Shown: positions 186-37,322 of the stretch, piece by piece
Position numbering within the stretch: the first letter of the stretch is position 1
Layout of the letters: each line of letters begins with the position of its first letter
IMG/VR virus record: IMGVR_UViG_3300011013_000042
Location: 1-37,322 of that record
DNA: 37,322 nt
Strand: one strand, 5' to 3'
DNA from: a virus
Translations under genes and position numbers: made by a program
The notes under the pieces: model-generated
What the model saw: the letters and a program-made list of their open reading frames with translations, nothing else
Databases searched by the model: none
What the model was told of the DNA's origin: nothing

Positions 186-911
186 ATGAAAACAATTAAT
201 GTGCTTTTTATCCACGGTATTGGTGGCGATAAAACCCACGCCCACGAAACGATGCTAAAAAACCTAAGGGCAAAACTTCCAAAAAACTTGGAGATAACTC
301 CCTTTGCCGTAAACTATTTGAGTTATTCAAATTACAATCAAGAGGAAAACTTTCAAAGAATGTTAGGTGCCGAAAATGGCAAGTACATGAAGCGTCTAAA
401 ATTTGTGCGCAAACTCTTTTTAAGTTCTTTTGGTGATGCGCTTGGCATTTATGCAGATAGAGGCATTTATAATCAGGTTATGGAAAATATTGACTATGGG
501 GTTAGGCGTCTTGTAAAGCTTAATCCCAAAGCCCCCACTATAGTCATATCGCAATCTCTAGGCTGCCAAATGTTCTCTTGCTATATGTGGGATAAGCAGC
601 GTAATGAGAGTATAAACCCTAAAATTAATATGTGGTTTAGCACTGGCAACAATATGCGTGGATTTTTTCACTCACGAAATTATCTGCAAGTAGTTCCTTT
701 TGACAGGCCTACTCCTAATTTTAAGTGGATTAACTTTTTTTCCTGGTCAGATCTTTTACTCGGTTACCATATGACAGGCATTAATAAGGCCTATGACAGA
801 CTACTAACACAGGATGTCCACGTTAAGGGTATCCCGTTTCTTAGCCATTCACGCTATGATGATAGTAATAAGGTGATAAAGACTATTGTAAGCGAATTAG
901 AGAAAATCTAA
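186..911 (+). CDS. Alpha/beta hydrolase (putative esterase/lipase)
   Basis: A 241-residue protein. The N terminus has a beta strand followed by HGIGG, the usual oxyanion-loop motif. A strand-turn-helix near residue 130 reads ISQSLGC, the position of the nucleophile elbow normally written G/H-x-S-x-G, so the serine of QSLG is the likely nucleophile. Candidate partners are an aspartate in the FSWSDLLLG or LLTQDVH stretch and the histidine in LSHSRYDD near the end, which together would make a Ser-Asp-His triad. I chose ATG 186 rather than ATG 147 because AGAGAGG sits five bases upstream of 186. No signal peptide is seen, so it acts in the cytoplasm or after lysis. Its last 15 bases overlap the end of terS on the opposite strand. 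The substrate cannot be told; it looks like an accessory gene beside the packaging genes. Confidence 0.7.
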   Translation: MKTINVLFIHGIGGDKTHAHETMLKNLRAKLPKNLEITPFAVNYLSYSNYNQEENFQRMLGAENGKYMKRLKFVRKLFLSSFGDALGIYADRGIYNQVMENIDYGVRRLVKLNPKAPTIVISQSLGCQMFSCYMWDKQRNESINPKINMWFSTGNNMRGFFHSRNYLQVVPFDRPTPNFKWINFFSWSDLLLGYHMTGINKAYDRLLTQDVHVKGIPFLSHSRYDDSNKVIKTIVSELEKI

Positions 912-1460
912 GTCTTCTTCAGTAGTATTTTCAGGGGAATCAAACATATCCTCAATATTTTGGGTAAACTTGGGCCCCGGCCGCTCCTCTTCTTCTAAAT
1001 CATCAAACTCCAAAGGGCCTTCAATGTCGGCCTTTTCTACAACTTCCCCCTCAATAATCTGATTATTGTCACGATGGCCAATGCCTGTATCTACGACTAT
1101 TTGAGTCGCAGTCACGGCCACTTCTCTTTTGTCCTGAAAGTCTTCTGGGAAGAAGTTCTTAAGAGCAAAGATCATTGCTGCTGGATTGGCCTTATTCTGG
1201 CCCTGGGCCTGTTCTAGGAGAATTTTCTCCCATTGATACCTTTGCAAGTTCCGGCCTATCTCCATGGCCTCTGAGAACTCTGGGAAGTTCTTTGCCCATG
1301 TCTTAACAATACCCATCGTGAGATAGTATTTTCCGCAAAATGACTGAACGCTGTGGCCATAGCTCATATGTTCCATAAGGGTAAAGCACACTTCGGGTGT
1401 GTAAAGTGTTCGGCCCATCATCTGCTTAATCTCTGCTTGGCTATATCTGATCATTGTCAT
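897..1460 (-). CDS. terS: Terminase small subunit
   Basis: A 187-residue protein with the layout of phage small terminases. A helix-turn-helix-like segment comes first (HSVQSFCGKYYLTMGIVKTW, then FPEFSEAMEIG), followed by a helical oligomerisation stretch (AMIFALKNFFPEDFQDK) and a disordered acidic tail. Small terminases bind the packaging site and regulate the large subunit. It lies 10 bases after an HNH gene on the same strand, a pairing that is common in packaging modules. The start ATG at 1460 has AAGGT a few bases upstream. The acidic tail ends EEDLDFL, the tip shared with several replication proteins of this phage. It is separated from terL by the window edge and by a plus-strand hydrolase, which is unusual if the map is circular. 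Confidence 0.8.
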   Translation of the reverse strand: MTMIRYSQAEIKQMMGRTLYTPEVCFTLMEHMSYGHSVQSFCGKYYLTMGIVKTWAKNFPEFSEAMEIGRNLQRYQWEKILLEQAQGQNKANPAAMIFALKNFFPEDFQDKREVAVTATQIVVDTGIGHRDNNQIIEGEVVEKADIEGPLEFDDLEEEERPGPKFTQNIEDMFDSPENTTEEDLDFL

Positions 1461-1470
1461 AAGTCTAACC

Positions 1471-1827
1471 TTATAGGTAAATGGTGCCTAACCTAATACT
1501 CTCCATGAAGCTATTAGTCTTAGCTAAGTGACACCTGGTGCATAATATTTGAAACCCCCACGATTCGCAAAAAAGTCTCTCAATCCAATTTTCCCAACAA
1601 TCAAATTGACCCACTTCAATAATATGATCTACTTGAACCTCTTCCCGTAAATAGTCTTTAGCACAAAAGGCGCAAGTATGGTGAACTCTAAATTTATCCT
1701 TACCGTTTTTGTACTTGCCAACGAACTTTAGAACCTTACAATCTTTTAAAGCTTGAGAGTATTCGGGCGTTTGAATAGACAGCTCCCTAAGTCGATTCTG
1801 TATCCTCTGTTGCGTTTTCTTGTCCAA
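1471..1827 (-). CDS. HNH endonuclease
   Basis: A 118-residue protein with two zinc-binding CxxC pairs, CAFC near residue 52 and CTRC near residue 96. Between them is VDHIIEVG, which supplies the first HNH histidines, and a later asparagine in CWENWIERLF; the last histidine is in CTRCHLAKT. HNH proteins encoded next to terminases assist DNA cleavage during packaging in many phages, and this gene directly precedes terS. The frame has no ATG at its front. TTG at 1827 preceded by AGAAGG at 1832-1837 is the best start. It is transcribed away from the regulator gene from a shared promoter region. A free-standing homing role is possible but less likely given its position. Confidence 0.8.
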   Translation of the reverse strand: MDKKTQQRIQNRLRELSIQTPEYSQALKDCKVLKFVGKYKNGKDKFRVHHTCAFCAKDYLREEVQVDHIIEVGQFDCWENWIERLFCESWGFQILCTRCHLAKTNSFMESIRLGTIYL

Positions 1828-1841
1828 AATGCCTTCTAGTA

Positions 1842-1870
1842 TTTACTTACAAGCTTTAAAATGTTATAAC
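1842..1870 (+). promoter_or_regulatory. Sigma70-like promoter for the regulator gene
   Basis: TTTACT (1842-1847), a 17-base spacer and TATAAC (1865-1870). Each hexamer is close to consensus, and the predicted start falls about 40 bases before the regulator ATG. The -10 lies inside the palindrome GTTATAAC. An operator-like 13-mer at 1868-1880 overlaps the -10 and start point, the expected geometry for autorepression. Confidence 0.5.
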
Positions 1871-1892
1871 TGTATACCAATACAAGTGTATA
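1863..1892 (-). promoter_or_regulatory. Divergent sigma70-like promoter for HNH-terS
   Basis: Read on the minus strand: TATACA (1892-1887), an 18-base spacer and TATAAC (1868-1863). The -10 is the other face of the palindrome GTTATAAC (1863-1870), so the two divergent promoters share one -10 region and should exclude each other. Both operator-like 13-mers fall in the spacer and -35 of this promoter. The -35 is a weak match, so this call is less secure than the rightward one. Confidence 0.35.
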
Positions 1893-1896
1893 CCAA
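1868..1896 (+). promoter_or_regulatory. Two direct operator-like sites
   Basis: AACTGTATACCAA at 1868-1880 and AAGTGTATACCAA at 1884-1896 differ at one base and are spaced 16 bases apart. They cover the start point of the regulator promoter. Close copies recur upstream of the replication operon (2583-2595 and 2611-2623) and in the repeats at 37113-37199. Binding by the adjacent XRE-like protein is inferred from position only. Confidence 0.5.
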
Positions 1897-1917
1897 GAAA
1901 CATAAAGGAGCAAGTAA

Positions 1918-2322
1918 ATGGAATTATATGAATATTTGAGAGAGCATGAAATACCTCTAAAAGTGGCCGCAGAGGCAATTGGGGTTAAGCAAGTTACGCT
2001 AAAAAAATACATGACGCATGAGCGTGAACCAAGACTTGAGACTGTTTTACGCATCTTAAAAGTCTTCGATGGTGCGGTGCAAATTGAAGACTTACTAAAT
2101 GTAAGGGTGAATCATCTTTGTTTGAGAAAAATAAATTTAAATAATTTGCCAAAAAGCAAAAAATGGCGGCGCGTTAAGGCAATTCAGGCCGTTTGTCGCG
2201 TCAAATCTGATAAAGTTAAATTTGAAAAAAAGTACGTTAGACTTGATTATAAAGTACCAGAAAAATGGTTTTTGCCTGCAAATGAAAAAACAGAAGAAAA
2301 TGAAAATTTAGACTTTTTATAG
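1918..2322 (+). CDS. XRE/Cro-like helix-turn-helix regulator
   Basis: A 134-residue protein whose residues 1-62 look like a Cro/CI-type DNA-binding domain: short helix, then PLKVAAEAIGVKQVTLKKYM as the helix-turn-helix, then REPRLETVLRILKVFDG. The rest is basic and lysine-rich, without a peptidase or oligomerisation domain that I recognise, so it is not a full CI-type repressor. It is first in the rightward direction, has AAAGGAG seven bases before its ATG, and is followed by two terminator-like stem-loops, so it is probably transcribed alone. Operator-like direct repeats over its promoter suggest autoregulation. The C terminus, after an acidic linker, ends ENLDFL, the tip shared with TerS and replication proteins. 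Whether it controls an early/late or lytic/latent decision cannot be told. Confidence 0.7.
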   Translation: MELYEYLREHEIPLKVAAEAIGVKQVTLKKYMTHEREPRLETVLRILKVFDGAVQIEDLLNVRVNHLCLRKINLNNLPKSKKWRRVKAIQAVCRVKSDKVKFEKKYVRLDYKVPEKWFLPANEKTEENENLDFL

Positions 2323-2436: not shown

Positions 2437-2582
2437 CGACTTTTCAAGTAGTTAACTGCCCCGTTTTCCGCCAAACGTAATGTAACTAACCCCCCCTGAA
2501 ATTTACATAAGTACACTGTACTACTTTTTTGGGCAATCCCATATTTTTTACGTTGGTGCGCGGAAGCAAGTGCGTTATAAAG

Positions 2583-2623
2583 TTGATATACACTTGTGTA
2601 CTTTTTACACAAGTGTATACCGT
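2583..2623. promoter_or_regulatory. Inverted operator-like pair
   Basis: A perfect 14-bp inverted repeat (2587-2600 with 2606-2619) and a 5-base spacer. Extended outward, the right arm reads AAGTGTATACCGT (2611-2623) and the left arm on the other strand reads AAGTGTATATCAA, each within one or two bases of the sites at the regulator promoter. ACAAGTGTATACC is identical at 1882-1894 and 2609-2621. It lies about 120 bases upstream of the replication promoter. Confidence 0.5.
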
Positions 2624-2738
2624 ATATGTTGCGGGGTATAACGTATTATATATTTTACCTAATAGCACTATGGACTTTTGATTAGCTTGATATTGTATGT
2701 TGTGTAACTATTCGTCAAGTCATAAATAAATTAATTTT

Positions 2739-2827: not shown

Positions 2828-4285
2828 ATGGATGAAGTCTCAATTAAACTGATCGACGAGTATCAGGTCAAAAAAATCTCCAGCACTAATATATTTTACT
2901 TCGGGACTTATTGCAGAGTAGCTAAGTTTTTTAAGGATGTAATACCCAATAAGAAGCTTTTAGACTATGGAGTAGAAGCAGAGGAACTCATCCTTAATCG
3001 AGATAAAGTCATAGATGATTTACTTAACTCTATGCGTGGACAATTGCACCGAGAGATTCAAGCACCCATAACAGAATTGCCCGAGTCAGGGCTAAATTTC
3101 TCAGAATTTATACTTCTTACTAGTATTAAAGACGCACAGCAAATGCTCTTTAATACTTTTTCAGAGACGGTTAGTCCAGTTAGTGCAGAAGCACTAATGC
3201 TCCCCATGGATAAGGAGGATAAGGCCTTCTTTATGGATAATATGCGGTATTGTGAGTTTATCTATAATCCCTTAAGCCCCCGAAAATATCAAATGTCTAA
3301 ACTGCATGGGCGTGATTTTATGGAATTTAATTCCCATGTGCCGGCCGACTGGAGAGTGTTACCCGAAATAGTTGACGCTGTATGTCCTGAGATTATTGCT
3401 AAAATGTTAAATTATTTATTTTTAGATGGGCCCAGTCTTGACTATACTTTGGATTGGATATATACCTGTATCGAATCTCGTAATGAGGTTTATCTCGTAC
3501 TGAACGGCTCAAAGGGCGTGGGAAAAGGCTTATTGACTTCCTTAGTTAAAAGTCTGCTTGGCAGCACGAACGCCCTGGATGCCCCCTTATCCTCTTTCAC
3601 CTCTCAATTTATGGCCGCTCTTGATAATAACCGCCTGGTAGTCTTTGACGAGTTTACAGTAGGCAAAAAAGAGCATACACGACTAAAAAGACTTGCCAAC
3701 AAATTTCAAACAATAGAGAAAAAAGGCATAGATGCTGACAAGGCCATTCTTACTCATAACTCTTTTATAATCTCTAATAACGATACTTCGGATATGTACC
3801 TAGAAGGAGATGACCGACGCTTTTCGGTACCTAATCTTAACACTAAGCGCATGACTGATATTTGGACTAAAGAGGAAATGGACGAGATTATAAAGGCAGT
3901 AGAAGAACCTAATACTATTTATAAGTTTGGACAATGGATTCTACAGCGAGGCCTTAAAACAGCTAAAGACTTTAACTCCTTTAGTCGTGAGGAATTTAGG
4001 TCAAATCACTTCCATTTACTCGTCTACACTTCCCTGGCCGAATGGCAAAGATTTATGGTTGATCATATCCTAGATTCAGAAGAGGCCGAGATAGAACTAG
4101 CAGAAATAAGAAAGGCCTTTACCCGAGAGTTTAAAGAACTAAAATTTCCCCGAAAATTCTCGAAAATTTCTGACTTTCTTACTAACTATCGACATGAAGG
4201 GGTTATGGAAATAGGAGAGTTAGTGCGTGAAGACCATGAGGCCATGTTTATAAGAGTATTTAAGAACGACCTTAATTTCCTATAG
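2828..4285 (+). CDS. SF3-type replicative helicase (primase-helicase C-terminal family)
   Basis: A 485-residue protein. Residues 1-190 are an unassigned N-terminal region without a zinc finger or clear primase motifs. From about 215 there is a superfamily 3 ATPase: Walker A GSKGVGKG at 227-234, Walker B LVVFDEF near 278, a sensor segment NSFIISNND near 317 and an arginine pair in EGDDRRFSV. Proteins of this D5/VirE-like group unwind DNA at phage and plasmid replication forks. It is first in the replication operon and has AAGGAAAG seven bases before its ATG. The protein ends KNDLNFL, the tip shared with the polymerase and TerS. No separate primase is visible, so priming must come from the N-terminal region, from the host or from transcription. 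Confidence 0.75.
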   Translation: MDEVSIKLIDEYQVKKISSTNIFYFGTYCRVAKFFKDVIPNKKLLDYGVEAEELILNRDKVIDDLLNSMRGQLHREIQAPITELPESGLNFSEFILLTSIKDAQQMLFNTFSETVSPVSAEALMLPMDKEDKAFFMDNMRYCEFIYNPLSPRKYQMSKLHGRDFMEFNSHVPADWRVLPEIVDAVCPEIIAKMLNYLFLDGPSLDYTLDWIYTCIESRNEVYLVLNGSKGVGKGLLTSLVKSLLGSTNALDAPLSSFTSQFMAALDNNRLVVFDEFTVGKKEHTRLKRLANKFQTIEKKGIDADKAILTHNSFIISNNDTSDMYLEGDDRRFSVPNLNTKRMTDIWTKEEMDEIIKAVEEPNTIYKFGQWILQRGLKTAKDFNSFSREEFRSNHFHLLVYTSLAEWQRFMVDHILDSEEAEIELAEIRKAFTREFKELKFPRKFSKISDFLTNYRHEGVMEIGELVREDHEAMFIRVFKNDLNFL

Positions 4286-4805: not shown

Positions 4806-6913
4806 TGGGCAATAAAATAACTCTTTCAATTGACGATGAAGAAAAAAGTAAATACGTCTACATTGACTATGAGTACAATGGAGTAAATCAAAAGCGACTT
4901 AATGTTGTCTCTGTCTCCTTTATGTGGGCTAGTGAAATATCTACTCGGTGGTTACATAAGAACAAAACAAATAAAGAAGAGTTACGTCAAGACTTAATAG
5001 ACTTTCATAACGAGGGTTATACTTTTGTGGCCTTCTCCTCGGAAGCAGAAGCGAGAAGTTTCCTATCGCTATCAATGAATAACGATAGAAGACTTATAAC
5101 TCAAATGCGCTGGATTGATCTCTATACAGAGTACAAGTGTATAAGCAATCACAATGCCCGAATATGTTACGGAAAACATTTAGTTAAAGGCACCGTAATA
5201 AACATAAGGGAACCGAAGCCAAAATGGGAACGCAAAGAGGGTGAAAAAGAAAGCCCACCTATGCAATACGGCCTGGCCAGCGCACTTTATAAATTCCTGG
5301 GCGTAGTTATAGACACCGACCACAAGGAAAAAATAAGGGATATAATAATAGCTTCCCCCAATGAATTTTCTACGCCACAAAAGAAAGCAATTTTAGAGTA
5401 CAACGAATCGGATATAATTTACCTTCCAAAGCTACACAAAGAAATTAATAAAGAATATCGGAGAGTATTACCAAGGAAAGAACATGCAAAAATTGAAAAA
5501 GAAATGCTACTCCGAGGAGAGTATGGGGCAAGAACCGCCATCATGTCTATGGACGGGTATCCAGTTGATACTATATCCGCTAGGAACTTTTCTAATAGTG
5601 TCTCTACTATATTGTCAGACATACAACGAGACATTAACAGATTGTTTCCGGCCATCAAACCTTTTCAATTTTGCACCAAGGAACTTAAATATAAATGGAG
5701 GCAAAAAGAAACCCGACAATGGATTGAAACCCTTCCAGAAGCTATACGTGCAGGATGGATGCGCACCAAAAAAAGCACCAAATTCCCAAAGGGGCAATAC
5801 TCCCTAAGTGTTGACGCATTTAGGCGATTCTATAGTGAACGCCACAATTATAGCGAAGATTCGCTAGGCAATCAATTTGTGCGTTATTTGACCACAAAAA
5901 CTAACCTAAATGGCTTTCTACCGCCGCCAAAGGGCAAGAAGTGCTTTTGGGACTTTGTAGGCCAGGACGGACGAGTAAGGCCTTTTTGGAACACATTTGG
6001 CAGTCAATCTTCAAGAACTCAACCAAGCGCAACTTCCTTCCTTTACCTAAAATCGGCCTGGATGCGTGTCCTAAATGTACCGCCTAGAGGCGTGGCCATA
6101 GGCTCAATTGACTACGGAAGTGAGGAATTTTTAATCGCGGCCCTACAGTCGGGCGATATGAACATGATTACTGCCTACATGTCCGGTGACGTTTATTTCT
6201 ATTTTGCTAAGCTAGCTAGGGCAGTTCCCCAAGATGCAAAACGAGAAGACTACGAGGGAATAAGGGACAAATTTAAGCAAGTTGTTTTGTCCATGCAGTA
6301 CCTTATGACAAAGTTTGGCCTGGCCATTCGCCTAACAGAAGTTACAGGAGAATACCATACTGAAGAAGAGGCCCAAGATTTTATCGATATGTTTAACGAG
6401 GCTTTTCCAGACTTTTATGATTACCGCGAACAAGTTTTAATTGATTATTATGAAGACGGATATTTAAAGTTACCGTGTGGGTGGCTAATGTTAGGAGACA
6501 ATACAAATTTTAGAAGCGCAACAAATTGCCCCACACAAGGCTTTGGGGCCTCTATTATGAGACTGGCCGTAAAATTGGCGCAAGATAGGGGCCTGCAAGT
6601 AATGCAAACGCTACACGACGCGCTTTATATAATGTTTAAAAGTAAAAATACTCAAAGTATGAAAGTTTTAGGCGATTGCATGAAAGAAGCGTTCGTGCAT
6701 TATTTCCCTAAAGAAATGAAAAAGTATGCTGTAAAAATTAGGCTAGATAGTGCAATATGGTCACTTGATTACCCTGACAAAGTAGAAGTCATAGAAGTAG
6801 AAGGAATGAAAATTAAAAAGATGCAAAAGTATATCGACCCTAGAGGTAAAAAAGAGTATCAAAGATTTAAAGGATACTTTAATAGTAACGGAGAAGGGTT
6901 AGATATTTTGTGA
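4805..6913 (+). CDS. polA: Family A DNA polymerase with 3'-5' exonuclease domain
   Basis: A 702-residue replicative polymerase. The N-terminal exonuclease has motif I DYE at 21-23 and motif III YNESD at 199-203. The polymerase domain has motif A IDYGSEEF (D436, E441), motif B with R, K, Y and FGLA in the usual spacing, and motif C LHDA with D605. At the site of E. coli Pol I F762 there is L495, the leucine class known from viral PolA surveys. The glutamate that usually follows the motif C aspartate is alanine. There is no 5' nuclease domain. I prefer ATG 4805 (TAATG with the previous stop) to TTG 4796. The tail after the palm is lysine-rich and ends GEGLDIL, the shared tip, which may tether the enzyme to a processivity factor. 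Confidence 0.93.
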   Translation: MGNKITLSIDDEEKSKYVYIDYEYNGVNQKRLNVVSVSFMWASEISTRWLHKNKTNKEELRQDLIDFHNEGYTFVAFSSEAEARSFLSLSMNNDRRLITQMRWIDLYTEYKCISNHNARICYGKHLVKGTVINIREPKPKWERKEGEKESPPMQYGLASALYKFLGVVIDTDHKEKIRDIIIASPNEFSTPQKKAILEYNESDIIYLPKLHKEINKEYRRVLPRKEHAKIEKEMLLRGEYGARTAIMSMDGYPVDTISARNFSNSVSTILSDIQRDINRLFPAIKPFQFCTKELKYKWRQKETRQWIETLPEAIRAGWMRTKKSTKFPKGQYSLSVDAFRRFYSERHNYSEDSLGNQFVRYLTTKTNLNGFLPPPKGKKCFWDFVGQDGRVRPFWNTFGSQSSRTQPSATSFLYLKSAWMRVLNVPPRGVAIGSIDYGSEEFLIAALQSGDMNMITAYMSGDVYFYFAKLARAVPQDAKREDYEGIRDKFKQVVLSMQYLMTKFGLAIRLTEVTGEYHTEEEAQDFIDMFNEAFPDFYDYREQVLIDYYEDGYLKLPCGWLMLGDNTNFRSATNCPTQGFGASIMRLAVKLAQDRGLQVMQTLHDALYIMFKSKNTQSMKVLGDCMKEAFVHYFPKEMKKYAVKIRLDSAIWSLDYPDKVEVIEVEGMKIKKMQKYIDPRGKKEYQRFKGYFNSNGEGLDIL

Positions 6914-35001: not shown

Positions 35002-36639
35002 CTATGCGGACAAGGCCAATTCGTTATATTTGCCATCCGCTACTTGTTGTTTCCCTCGATTCCTTCTCGGATCATTAGGAAAATAAGAAATACGATCATC
35101 TAGTGAGGAGTATCCAAAACTATCTGCCCCATGAGAAGACCAATCATGTTTTGGAGTCTTTTTGAACATCATTAGCTTACCATCGTACTCCTTTTGGTAA
35201 TTGTATAGGCAATCTAGGCCTCTTGCACACTTTTCTGCATCAAACCATGAGTTTTTTAGTCGATCACGCGACGCATTTATACGATCTTCGATACTTTGGC
35301 GTGTCTGTATCTCCACATTAAGTCCTTTTGCTCTTGCAGATTCTTGCCTAGACACTCCGGTAATAAAATCCTTTGCCGCCCCATCATGCGGCCAAACATG
35401 TCTACCGTATTTATAGCCGTATCCTTTAATCTCTTCGCTCCCGTCCTCATCAATATTAGTGAGGCGATTAAGTTGCTCTTTTGCTTCAAGGAGGCGAATA
35501 TAATGATCTACACCCCTACCGTTATTTTCGTAGTAGTCAATATACCTGTATTGCCCTCCAATTTTTTGGATAAACCAAATTGTACACTTATCGCCAATGC
35601 CTAAATCCCAAAAGGTATCCACGGGGTACCGACTATCGTAAGGTACAGAACAAATTCTCCCTTCTTCTCGTAATCTATTAAGTCTATGTCCGAAATAAGC
35701 CCCTATAACGGCGGCAGTAAAAGAACACTCAAGCTCTTGTTCTATTTCCTCGGGAGATAAGTCCTCCCGCATATCGTCTAATTCTTCTCGATCTAAAATT
35801 CCAGTTTCAGAGGCGCGATATATGGCGGTAAACCAATTACTACATACTAGATACTTACGGTATTGATTATATCTATTTTGTTCCGCAGGATCTAAATCCA
35901 AAAGCATCCGGTTGAGATCTATATCTGAGGTATCGTTATTTATTCCTAAACGGCGATTAATCATTAACTCAAAATGAGCTTCCTTTTTAAGATCACGGTC
36001 CATTAGGTATCTTTTCACATAAAGTTCATTGGCCCTGCCTTTTTCGTATCTATGGTAAAAATGGTTTTGTCCTTTTGGGGTGCCTATAAAGATGGCCCAT
36101 GGTTCAAGAGGACAACCACTCATGTCCATATAAACGCCCATATCTCTTGCGGTCTTCTTTCTATCAGCAAGGGCCGGTCTAACAATCTGACCCCAAAGTA
36201 TGGGGTCACATTGGGCAAATTCATCTAGTATGCCCCCGTCGAGATAGATCCCACGTAAATCATCGGGTGCGTCCGCACCTATAAGCATAAGTTTTATAAC
36301 ATCGGGGTCTCTATCTCCTGTTTCGGGACAAATTCTCCCAGGTCTTGGAATATAGATAGTTAGTTCCGTCTTGTTTACTTTAACGCCCGGGATATTTCGC
36401 GTATAATCTACAAAGTATTGCCAAGCTATCTTTTTCGCTTGCTTGTAAGTAGGGGCTATATAGGCATATTGAGGATTTCTTAAAGGATTCGAGAGCCCTC
36501 TATGTAAGATCTCATTGATGGCTAGTACCGTTTTACCAAATCTACGATGGCATACTAAAACATTAAAACGCTTTAGCGCACCATGAATTAACTTTTGGAG
36601 TCTACGGGGCTTATAGCCCGTACCTATCTTCTTAATCAT
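35002..36639 (-). CDS. terL: Terminase large subunit
   Basis: A 545-residue packaging motor. The ATPase has Walker A CHRRFGKT at 30-37 and Walker B GGILDE at 135-140, with the coupling segment IFIGTPKGQNHFY near 183-195. The RNase H-like nuclease has acidic residues D345 (FWDLGIGD), D419 (PHDGAAKD) and D506 (HGADSFGY). It pulls DNA into the procapsid and cuts it. Its ATG overlaps the preceding gene's stop as TAATG. terS is not next to it in this window but lies beyond the left end on the same strand. Confidence 0.95.
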   Translation of the reverse strand: MIKKIGTGYKPRRLQKLIHGALKRFNVLVCHRRFGKTVLAINEILHRGLSNPLRNPQYAYIAPTYKQAKKIAWQYFVDYTRNIPGVKVNKTELTIYIPRPGRICPETGDRDPDVIKLMLIGADAPDDLRGIYLDGGILDEFAQCDPILWGQIVRPALADRKKTARDMGVYMDMSGCPLEPWAIFIGTPKGQNHFYHRYEKGRANELYVKRYLMDRDLKKEAHFELMINRRLGINNDTSDIDLNRMLLDLDPAEQNRYNQYRKYLVCSNWFTAIYRASETGILDREELDDMREDLSPEEIEQELECSFTAAVIGAYFGHRLNRLREEGRICSVPYDSRYPVDTFWDLGIGDKCTIWFIQKIGGQYRYIDYYENNGRGVDHYIRLLEAKEQLNRLTNIDEDGSEEIKGYGYKYGRHVWPHDGAAKDFITGVSRQESARAKGLNVEIQTRQSIEDRINASRDRLKNSWFDAEKCARGLDCLYNYQKEYDGKLMMFKKTPKHDWSSHGADSFGYSSLDDRISYFPNDPRRNRGKQQVADGKYNELALSA

Positions 36640-36938
36640 TAAAGATCAGTTAGATCCTCAGGCGGGACTGGGCCTAAGGTGTCTTCGGTGGTCCCCAAAA
36701 TTTCTTTATCCGCATTTACTAGCAAAGCAAGAAGAGTTTCTTTTGAGGCATTCCCTTTAAATTCTATTTTTCTTTCAGTTAGTGCCTCTTTTAGACTAGA
36801 TGCGGTCATAAGAGTATAGTCCTTTTGCACTTTTGTCGCAGGTTCTTCTTTTTCTTCTAATATGTTTTCTACCTTTTTAGATGCCGCCGGAGCTTTAAAA
36901 GGCTCAAAGCCAGTATCAGTTAAGATTCTCTTTTTCAT
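36639..36938 (-). CDS. HeH/SAP-like DNA-binding protein at the head of the late operon
   Basis: A 99-residue protein. Residues about 45-80 (SSLKEALTERKIEFKGNASK, then ETLLALL) match the helix-extension-helix pattern of HeH/SAP domains, which bind DNA. The start is disordered and basic; the end is acidic and finishes PEDLTDL, related to the D-L-D-x-L tips of the replication proteins. ATG 36938 with GAGGG upstream is chosen over 36953. It is translationally coupled to terL. A role linking packaging to DNA ends or to the replisome is plausible but not shown. Confidence 0.6.
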   Translation of the reverse strand: MKKRILTDTGFEPFKAPAASKKVENILEEKEEPATKVQKDYTLMTASSLKEALTERKIEFKGNASKETLLALLVNADKEILGTTEDTLGPVPPEDLTDL

Positions 36939-36974
36939 AAATTCTACCCTCATTAAAGTTTTACGTAAAAGACT

Positions 36975-37003: not shown

Positions 37004-37112
37004 ACTGCTATGCGTCACCTTAAGGGGCCGGGAGGTATTTTGGGTCAAGGAAACTAGGGAACATTCTATCCTTATTAGTGCCTTTGCTAGGAGGTAGGGA
37101 TTTTTAGTAGGG

Positions 37113-37217
37113 TTAGTATACAGTTGGGGTGCTTTTAAGCGTAAAGTAGTTAGTATACAGTTGGGGTGCTTTTAAGCGTAAAGTAGTTAGTATACAGTTG
37201 GGGTGCTTTTAGGCGTA
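37113..37217. repeat. 37-bp tandem repeat with operator-like cores
   Basis: Two identical 37-base units (37113-37149, 37150-37186) and a third that matches for about 31 bases (from 37187). Each begins TTAGTATACAGTT, whose complement AACTGTATACTAA differs by one base from the operator-like site at 1868-1880. On the minus strand each unit also contains TTTACG and, 19 bases later, TATACT, so each could be a weak leftward promoter or a regulator site. Confidence 0.85.
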
Positions 37218-37220
37218 GGG

Positions 37221-37322
37221 GGGAAAGGCCGTTTTGTAAAAAATCGTGCTCTTTTAGGGTAGGGAAAAGGCCGTTTTGTAAAAAATCGTTCTCTTTTAGG
37301 GTAGGGAAAAGGCCGTTTTGTA
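37221..37322. repeat. 41-42-bp tandem repeat cut by the window end
   Basis: Unit A 37221-37261 (41 bases), unit B 37262-37303 (42 bases, differing by one inserted A and one G-to-T change) and the first 19 bases of unit C. Each contains AAAGGCCGTTTTGTA. Sequence at position 1 does not continue the unit, so the window breaks inside the array. Confidence 0.85.

Follow-up and report, generated by a model that had tools for sequence, protein, structure and literature searches.

In the genome of an uncultured phage, we found that the tandem repeats lying upstream of the late genes resemble the operator-like sites around the phage's own regulator gene. That the repeat units are sites for this Cro/CI-type regulator is, judged from sequence, the best supported single explanation, and we hold it with about even confidence. 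A role in DNA packaging ranks second, and the same place may serve both purposes. The repeats, their likeness to the sites of the regulator region, the gene order of related phages and the recurrence of the motif in other phages can all be read directly from the sequences described below. The window, i.e. the whole stretch of 37,322 nucleotides that was analysed, is a linear IMG/VR record representing a linear fragment.

Results

Tandem repeats at the contig end

The relevant features at this end of the window are as follows.

35002 to 36639, minus strand: terminase large subunit TerL (phrog_2, E 4e-28), start of the late/structural operon
36639 to 36953, minus strand: first late gene, directly before TerL, with a weak HeH/LEM/SAP-like match below the Pfam cut-off
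37112 to 37217, minus strand: array 1, three 37-bp units (2.9 copies, Tandem Repeats Finder)
37206 to 37322, minus strand: array 2, 42-bp units (2.7 copies, Tandem Repeats Finder)

The late operon comprises the minus-strand genes from 36953 downward, namely the small gene, TerL, portal and then further late genes, which after the portal match scaffold, capsid and tail genes of HTVC010P. Array 1 precedes the first late gene by 160-265 bp. The initial annotation had described three 37-bp units with AACTGTATACTAA on the minus strand, differing by one base from the site at 1868-1880, and both statements are correct, coordinates included: every unit carries AACTGTATACTAA reading toward the late operon, which corresponds to TTAGTATACAGTT on the plus strand at 37113-37125, 37150-37162 and 37187-37199. 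The first two units are identical, the third departs from them after about 26 bases, and AACTGTATAC is part of each unit. Searched against viral_contigs, an 18-base stretch from the unit matched exactly nowhere else.

Directly adjoining is array 2, which had escaped the initial annotation and whose units include the A/T tract ATTTTTTACAAAACGG. Among the tandem arrays of the window, these two have by far the highest scores. Array 2 runs to the final base of the contig and is the probable reason why the assembly ended at 37322.

Gene order in related phages

At the opposite end of the contig from the late operon lie the small terminase subunit and its neighbours.

897 to 1460, minus strand: terminase small subunit TerS (phrog_309, E 2e-17)
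1471 to 1827, minus strand: HNH endonuclease gene, divergent from the regulator
1918 to 2322, plus strand: Cro/CI-type HTH regulator of 134 aa, matching HTH_3 above the gathering score (28.4 bits, cut-off 23)

Relatives of the window phage were collected by TerL (50-63% identity); single queries with the first late gene and with TerS returned no close relatives, and the TerS alignment was too diverse to serve as a search query. In the relatives, the order HTH regulator, HNH, TerS, small genes of opposite direction, non-coding region, small gene and TerL is contiguous, with TerS and TerL encoded on one strand and TerS 1-4 kb upstream. By this contiguous order, about 2.1 kb and a gap of unsequenced DNA separate the array from the regulator sites. 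The distance of 35 kb given earlier is thus wrong and arises from the point at which the linear contig happens to be cut. The array does stand upstream of the first late gene, as was claimed, but in the relatives operons leave the equivalent region in both directions, so that it is probably a divergent intergenic region and not solely the upstream region of the late operon. Pentapeptide-like short-repeat genes were seen at 4517-4924 of L109 and 7535-7948 of L009, among the small genes that separate TerS from the array region.

A Cro/CI-type HTH gene stands beside HNH/TerS in the relatives whose contigs cover that place, and five of the seven regulator homologues match HTH_3; the gene was not located in L014 and L008.

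Direct repeats occupy the array's place in eight of 14 phages, window phage included. Their sequences are unrelated and their periods mostly 45-64 bp, and they precede the first late gene by 44-369 bp. Tandem repeat periods are 50 bp in L008, 13 and 50 bp in L010, 30 and 50 bp in L018, 32 bp in L026, 47 bp in L030, 51 bp in both L014 and L034, and 64 bp in L009, while the array regions of L012 and L016 hold no repeats clearly above background.

Operator-like sites in the window

Four operator-like sites surround the regulator gene.

1866 to 1881, plus strand: half-consensus site ATAACTGTATACCAAT, HNH/regulator divergent promoter region
1882 to 1897, plus strand: dyad ACAAGTGTATACCAAG with core ATACA-AG-TGTAT, same region
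2582 to 2597, minus strand: dyad ACAAGTGTATATCAAC, between regulator and primase
2609 to 2624, plus strand: dyad ACAAGTGTATACCGTA, between regulator and primase

By their sequence, these sites are probably bound by the phage's own regulator, and the one at 1882 places an ACA-N2-TGT dyad in the regulator's own promoter region. The sites at 1866 and 1882 read in the direction of the regulator gene, those at 2582 and 2609 have opposite orientations, and the array units point toward the late operon. A run of T8AA repeats is located nearby, at 2399-2444, between the regulator and primase genes.

Counting the 13-mer with at most one mismatch over the whole window gave four matches against 0.09 expected from shuffles; as three of these belong to the tandem array, the number of independent occurrences is two. 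All good sites are confined to two regions. The seven copies mentioned in the initial annotation hold only loosely, as those at 1884, 2583 and 2609 differ from the 13-mer by at least two bases and, on their sequence, are better described as a separate dyad, TACACA-AG-TGTATA. GTATAC is indeed rare in coding DNA (three in about 35.4 kb, against six in 1,880 non-coding bases), but its total of nine is not above chance, 5.9 being expected and 14 of 100 shuffles reaching nine. Good dyad matches also occur within coding DNA, at 5129-5144 in the polymerase gene (GAGTACAAGTGTATAA) and at 3036-3051 in the primase gene (GTGGACAATTGCACCG).

An unweighted local comparison of the two non-coding regions of the window was not significant (P=0.62), and for this reason weighted matrices with cross-phage controls were used. 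The first matrix was built from the four regulator-region sites of the window alone, with the array left out. Over the whole 37 kb, the array units rank directly after the training sites (14.2 bits), a score reached by 0.0005 of shuffled regions and expected 0.175 times genome-wide. With a three-site matrix, the array drops to rank 6, below one match in coding sequence. Another matrix was made from ACA-N2-TGT sites of the relatives L111, L018 and L026, the window being left out; it places the window sites 1878, 2586 and 2605 at ranks 3, 5 and 7 in 37 kb, and the array units only 93rd. The units are not full dyad operators, having one half-site (TGTATAC) and lacking the second. Strong by the window's matrix and weak by that of the relatives or by three sites, the array looks like a half-consensus operator.

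Recurrence of the motif in relatives

The ACA-N2-TGT dyad, first spotted by eye and afterwards confirmed by a scan of all dyads, ranks first among the 576 dyads scanned across non-coding DNA of 15 phages, with 32 occurrences against 5.0 expected (z=12). Motifs were also discovered blindly, phage by phage, in the regulator region, and their best matches then scored in the terS-terL region. Between terS and terL, the motif from the regulator region reappears at P<=0.02 in five of ten phages (window phage 0.008, L010 0.002, L016 0.001, L111 0.001, L014 0.011), whereas cross-phage controls were positive in three of 90 cases (Fisher exact 1.6e-4). Taken with the rank of the array under the window's own matrix, this recurrence lends fair support to the array units being operators.

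The clearest layout is that of L111, where the dyad occupies the same three places, HNH/HTH, HTH-primase and terS-terL, with a single copy at the first, upstream of the regulator, a pair at the second, upstream of the primase, and six copies at the third. Tandem array units of L018 and L026 contain the ACA-N2-TGT dyad, and those of L010 near the late genes match the L010 regulator-region motif (P=0.005); repeats were divided into late-gene-proximal and distal ones once the sequences had been seen, and P values based on this division are exploratory. The regulator-region motif is absent from the repeats nearest the late genes in L009, L030, L034 and L014.

What had been observed in the initial annotation therefore stands with the corrections given above, and its interpretation of the array units as regulator sites is partly supported: the four-site matrix and the recurrence in relatives speak for it, the single half-site and the rank of 93 against it.

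Discussion

A possible circuit and its known counterparts

In the circuit that we propose, the array would be a tandemly duplicated stretch of the terS-terL control region of an uncultured podovirus, each unit providing a half-consensus operator for the regulator encoded at 1918-2322. Stronger sites would be those at the regulator's divergent promoter (1882, with the half-consensus 1866) and before the replication genes (2582, 2609), and the weaker, multiplied sites of the array would be filled only at higher levels of the regulator. Once occupied, the array would act on late transcription, either as a repressing or as an activating element, and might also affect the small-gene operon leaving the same region in the other direction. 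Holding, triggering or, by titration, delaying the late operon, as put forward in the initial annotation, are conceivable effects of the array. Binding by the regulator, the later filling of the array and the sign of its effect are what we infer. The circuit amounts to a testable regulon, in which one Cro-like regulator would have three target regions and arrays would change with regulator specificity.

The window phage shares with the Cro/CI-type systems of lambda, 434 and P22 a small HTH_3 regulator that diverges from the adjacent gene, as well as dyad sites both in the promoter region of that regulator and before further early genes. Unlike those systems, it has extra tandem half-consensus sites at the late/terminase region, and no lysogeny genes were recognised in the window. 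HTVC010P-type pelagiphages are the closest cultured relatives (portal 43%, TerL 33%) and share the late gene order, but neither HTVC010P nor HTVC035P has a tandem array upstream of TerL. Our literature search found no description of operator arrays upstream of late or terminase genes. In cluster A mycobacteriophages such as L5 and TipsytheTRex, too, a regulator site of about 13 bp recurs in numerous short non-coding copies in addition to the classical operator; these copies are known as stoperators (PMC9283540). Stoperators, however, are more than 20 dispersed, asymmetric intergenic sites at which a two-domain repressor of temperate phages stops elongation (PMC9283540), whereas the window phage has a 134-aa regulator and a handful of sites at three places, including a clustered array; four sites have at most one mismatch, and the good ones lie in two regions. 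The orientation of stoperators follows transcription, to be compared with the orientations of the window sites given above.

Alternative explanations

Each unit of array 1 might be one of several tandem promoters of the late operon, with TATACT as the -10 element: this hexamer faces the late operon in all three units, and L026 units have TATAAT placed likewise relative to the dyad. Yet a search for sigma-70-like promoters found none in the array, the units lack a -35 hexamer at 16-18 bp, and most arrays of relatives lack such a -10 element, which makes tandem promoters a very improbable account. Replication-origin iterons or a functionless neutral minisatellite we consider unlikely as well. 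Slippage generates tandem repeats, the arrays change rapidly in sequence from phage to phage, and some relatives have no arrays, but the arrays recur at the same place in most relatives, and GC skew tracks the direction of transcription without a separate origin sign at the array region.

Compared with these, the possibility that arrays 1 and 2 are amplified parts of a cos- or pac-like packaging-initiation site, their resemblance to operators being incidental or secondary, deserves more weight as a serious rival, although we regard it as less likely than not. In favour of it, repeats are found at the same place in the eight of 14 phages despite their unrelated sequence, and that place is directly upstream of the terminase genes, in the window before the gene preceding TerL and similarly in relatives. 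The cos region of lambda-type phages combines a cosN dyad, cosB repeats and terminase genes; here, too, repeats lie just upstream of terminase genes and, in relatives, a palindrome lies beyond them, but TerS of the window phage is on the far side and there is no known cut site or overhang. The palindrome, GGGGGTACCCCCAA, which many uncultured podoviruses carry upstream of TerL, was found via words common to terS-terL regions and stands just beyond the late-gene-proximal repeats in several relatives. In three relatives, the palindrome has these positions.

L009, 9354 to 9367: GGGGGTACCCCCAA, upstream of TerL, same orientation
L010, 5697 to 5710: GGGGGTACCCCCAA, upstream of TerL, same orientation
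L034, 3813 to 3826: GGGGGTACCCCCAA, upstream of TerL, same orientation

A scan of 2.9 million viral contigs (viral_contigs) for GGGGGTACCCCCAA matched 115 stretches. This TerL/portal family is carried by 34 of 88 examined loci, a raw share that includes a few near-duplicates, and in 29 of the 34, again with some near-duplicates, GGGGGTACCCCCAA lies upstream in the same orientation. At fixed spacing after it, a subset has an A/T tract at +43 to +51 (6 of 25; shuffled mean 0.5) and T[AG]AC[GAT]CA at +58 to +66 (9 of 25; shuffled mean 1.0). The 42-mer of the window contains a similar A/T tract and the 37-mer contains TTTACGC, in the same order as after GGGGGTACCCCCAA, but these matches are weak (P 0.05 and 0.14, respectively). 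The window lacks GGGGGTACCCCCAA, its contig stopping short of the point at which the palindrome would appear; a candidate dyad cut site, GGGGGTACCCCC, lies beside the repeats in relatives, and the window contig ends inside its repeats. Moreover, the members have no known genome ends, and none could be transferred from cultured or isolate-like records, as those checked (HTVC010P, HTVC035P, Venkman, Rhodoferax P26218, Ochrobactrum OH, Limnohabitans DC33 and others) lack a comparable palindrome. The conserved palindrome, the elements at fixed spacing and the motif-free repeats in four phages make a cos- or pac-like site at the array region plausible but unproven; GGGGGTACCCCCAA itself is a candidate for such a site or for a conserved cis element of another kind. 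Its presence upstream of TerL would, once a packaging role were confirmed, give a handle for genome ends in metagenomic genomes. Packaging start and late control might also form one composite element, in which the palindrome, the A/T tract and TRACGCA at fixed spacing would be joined to tandem units whose regulator half-operators couple late transcription to the start of packaging; we think such an arrangement improbable.

In a more distant phage, several tandem TTTTTATCTTAGAAAACAA-like units follow the palindrome (L170, 1277-1450).
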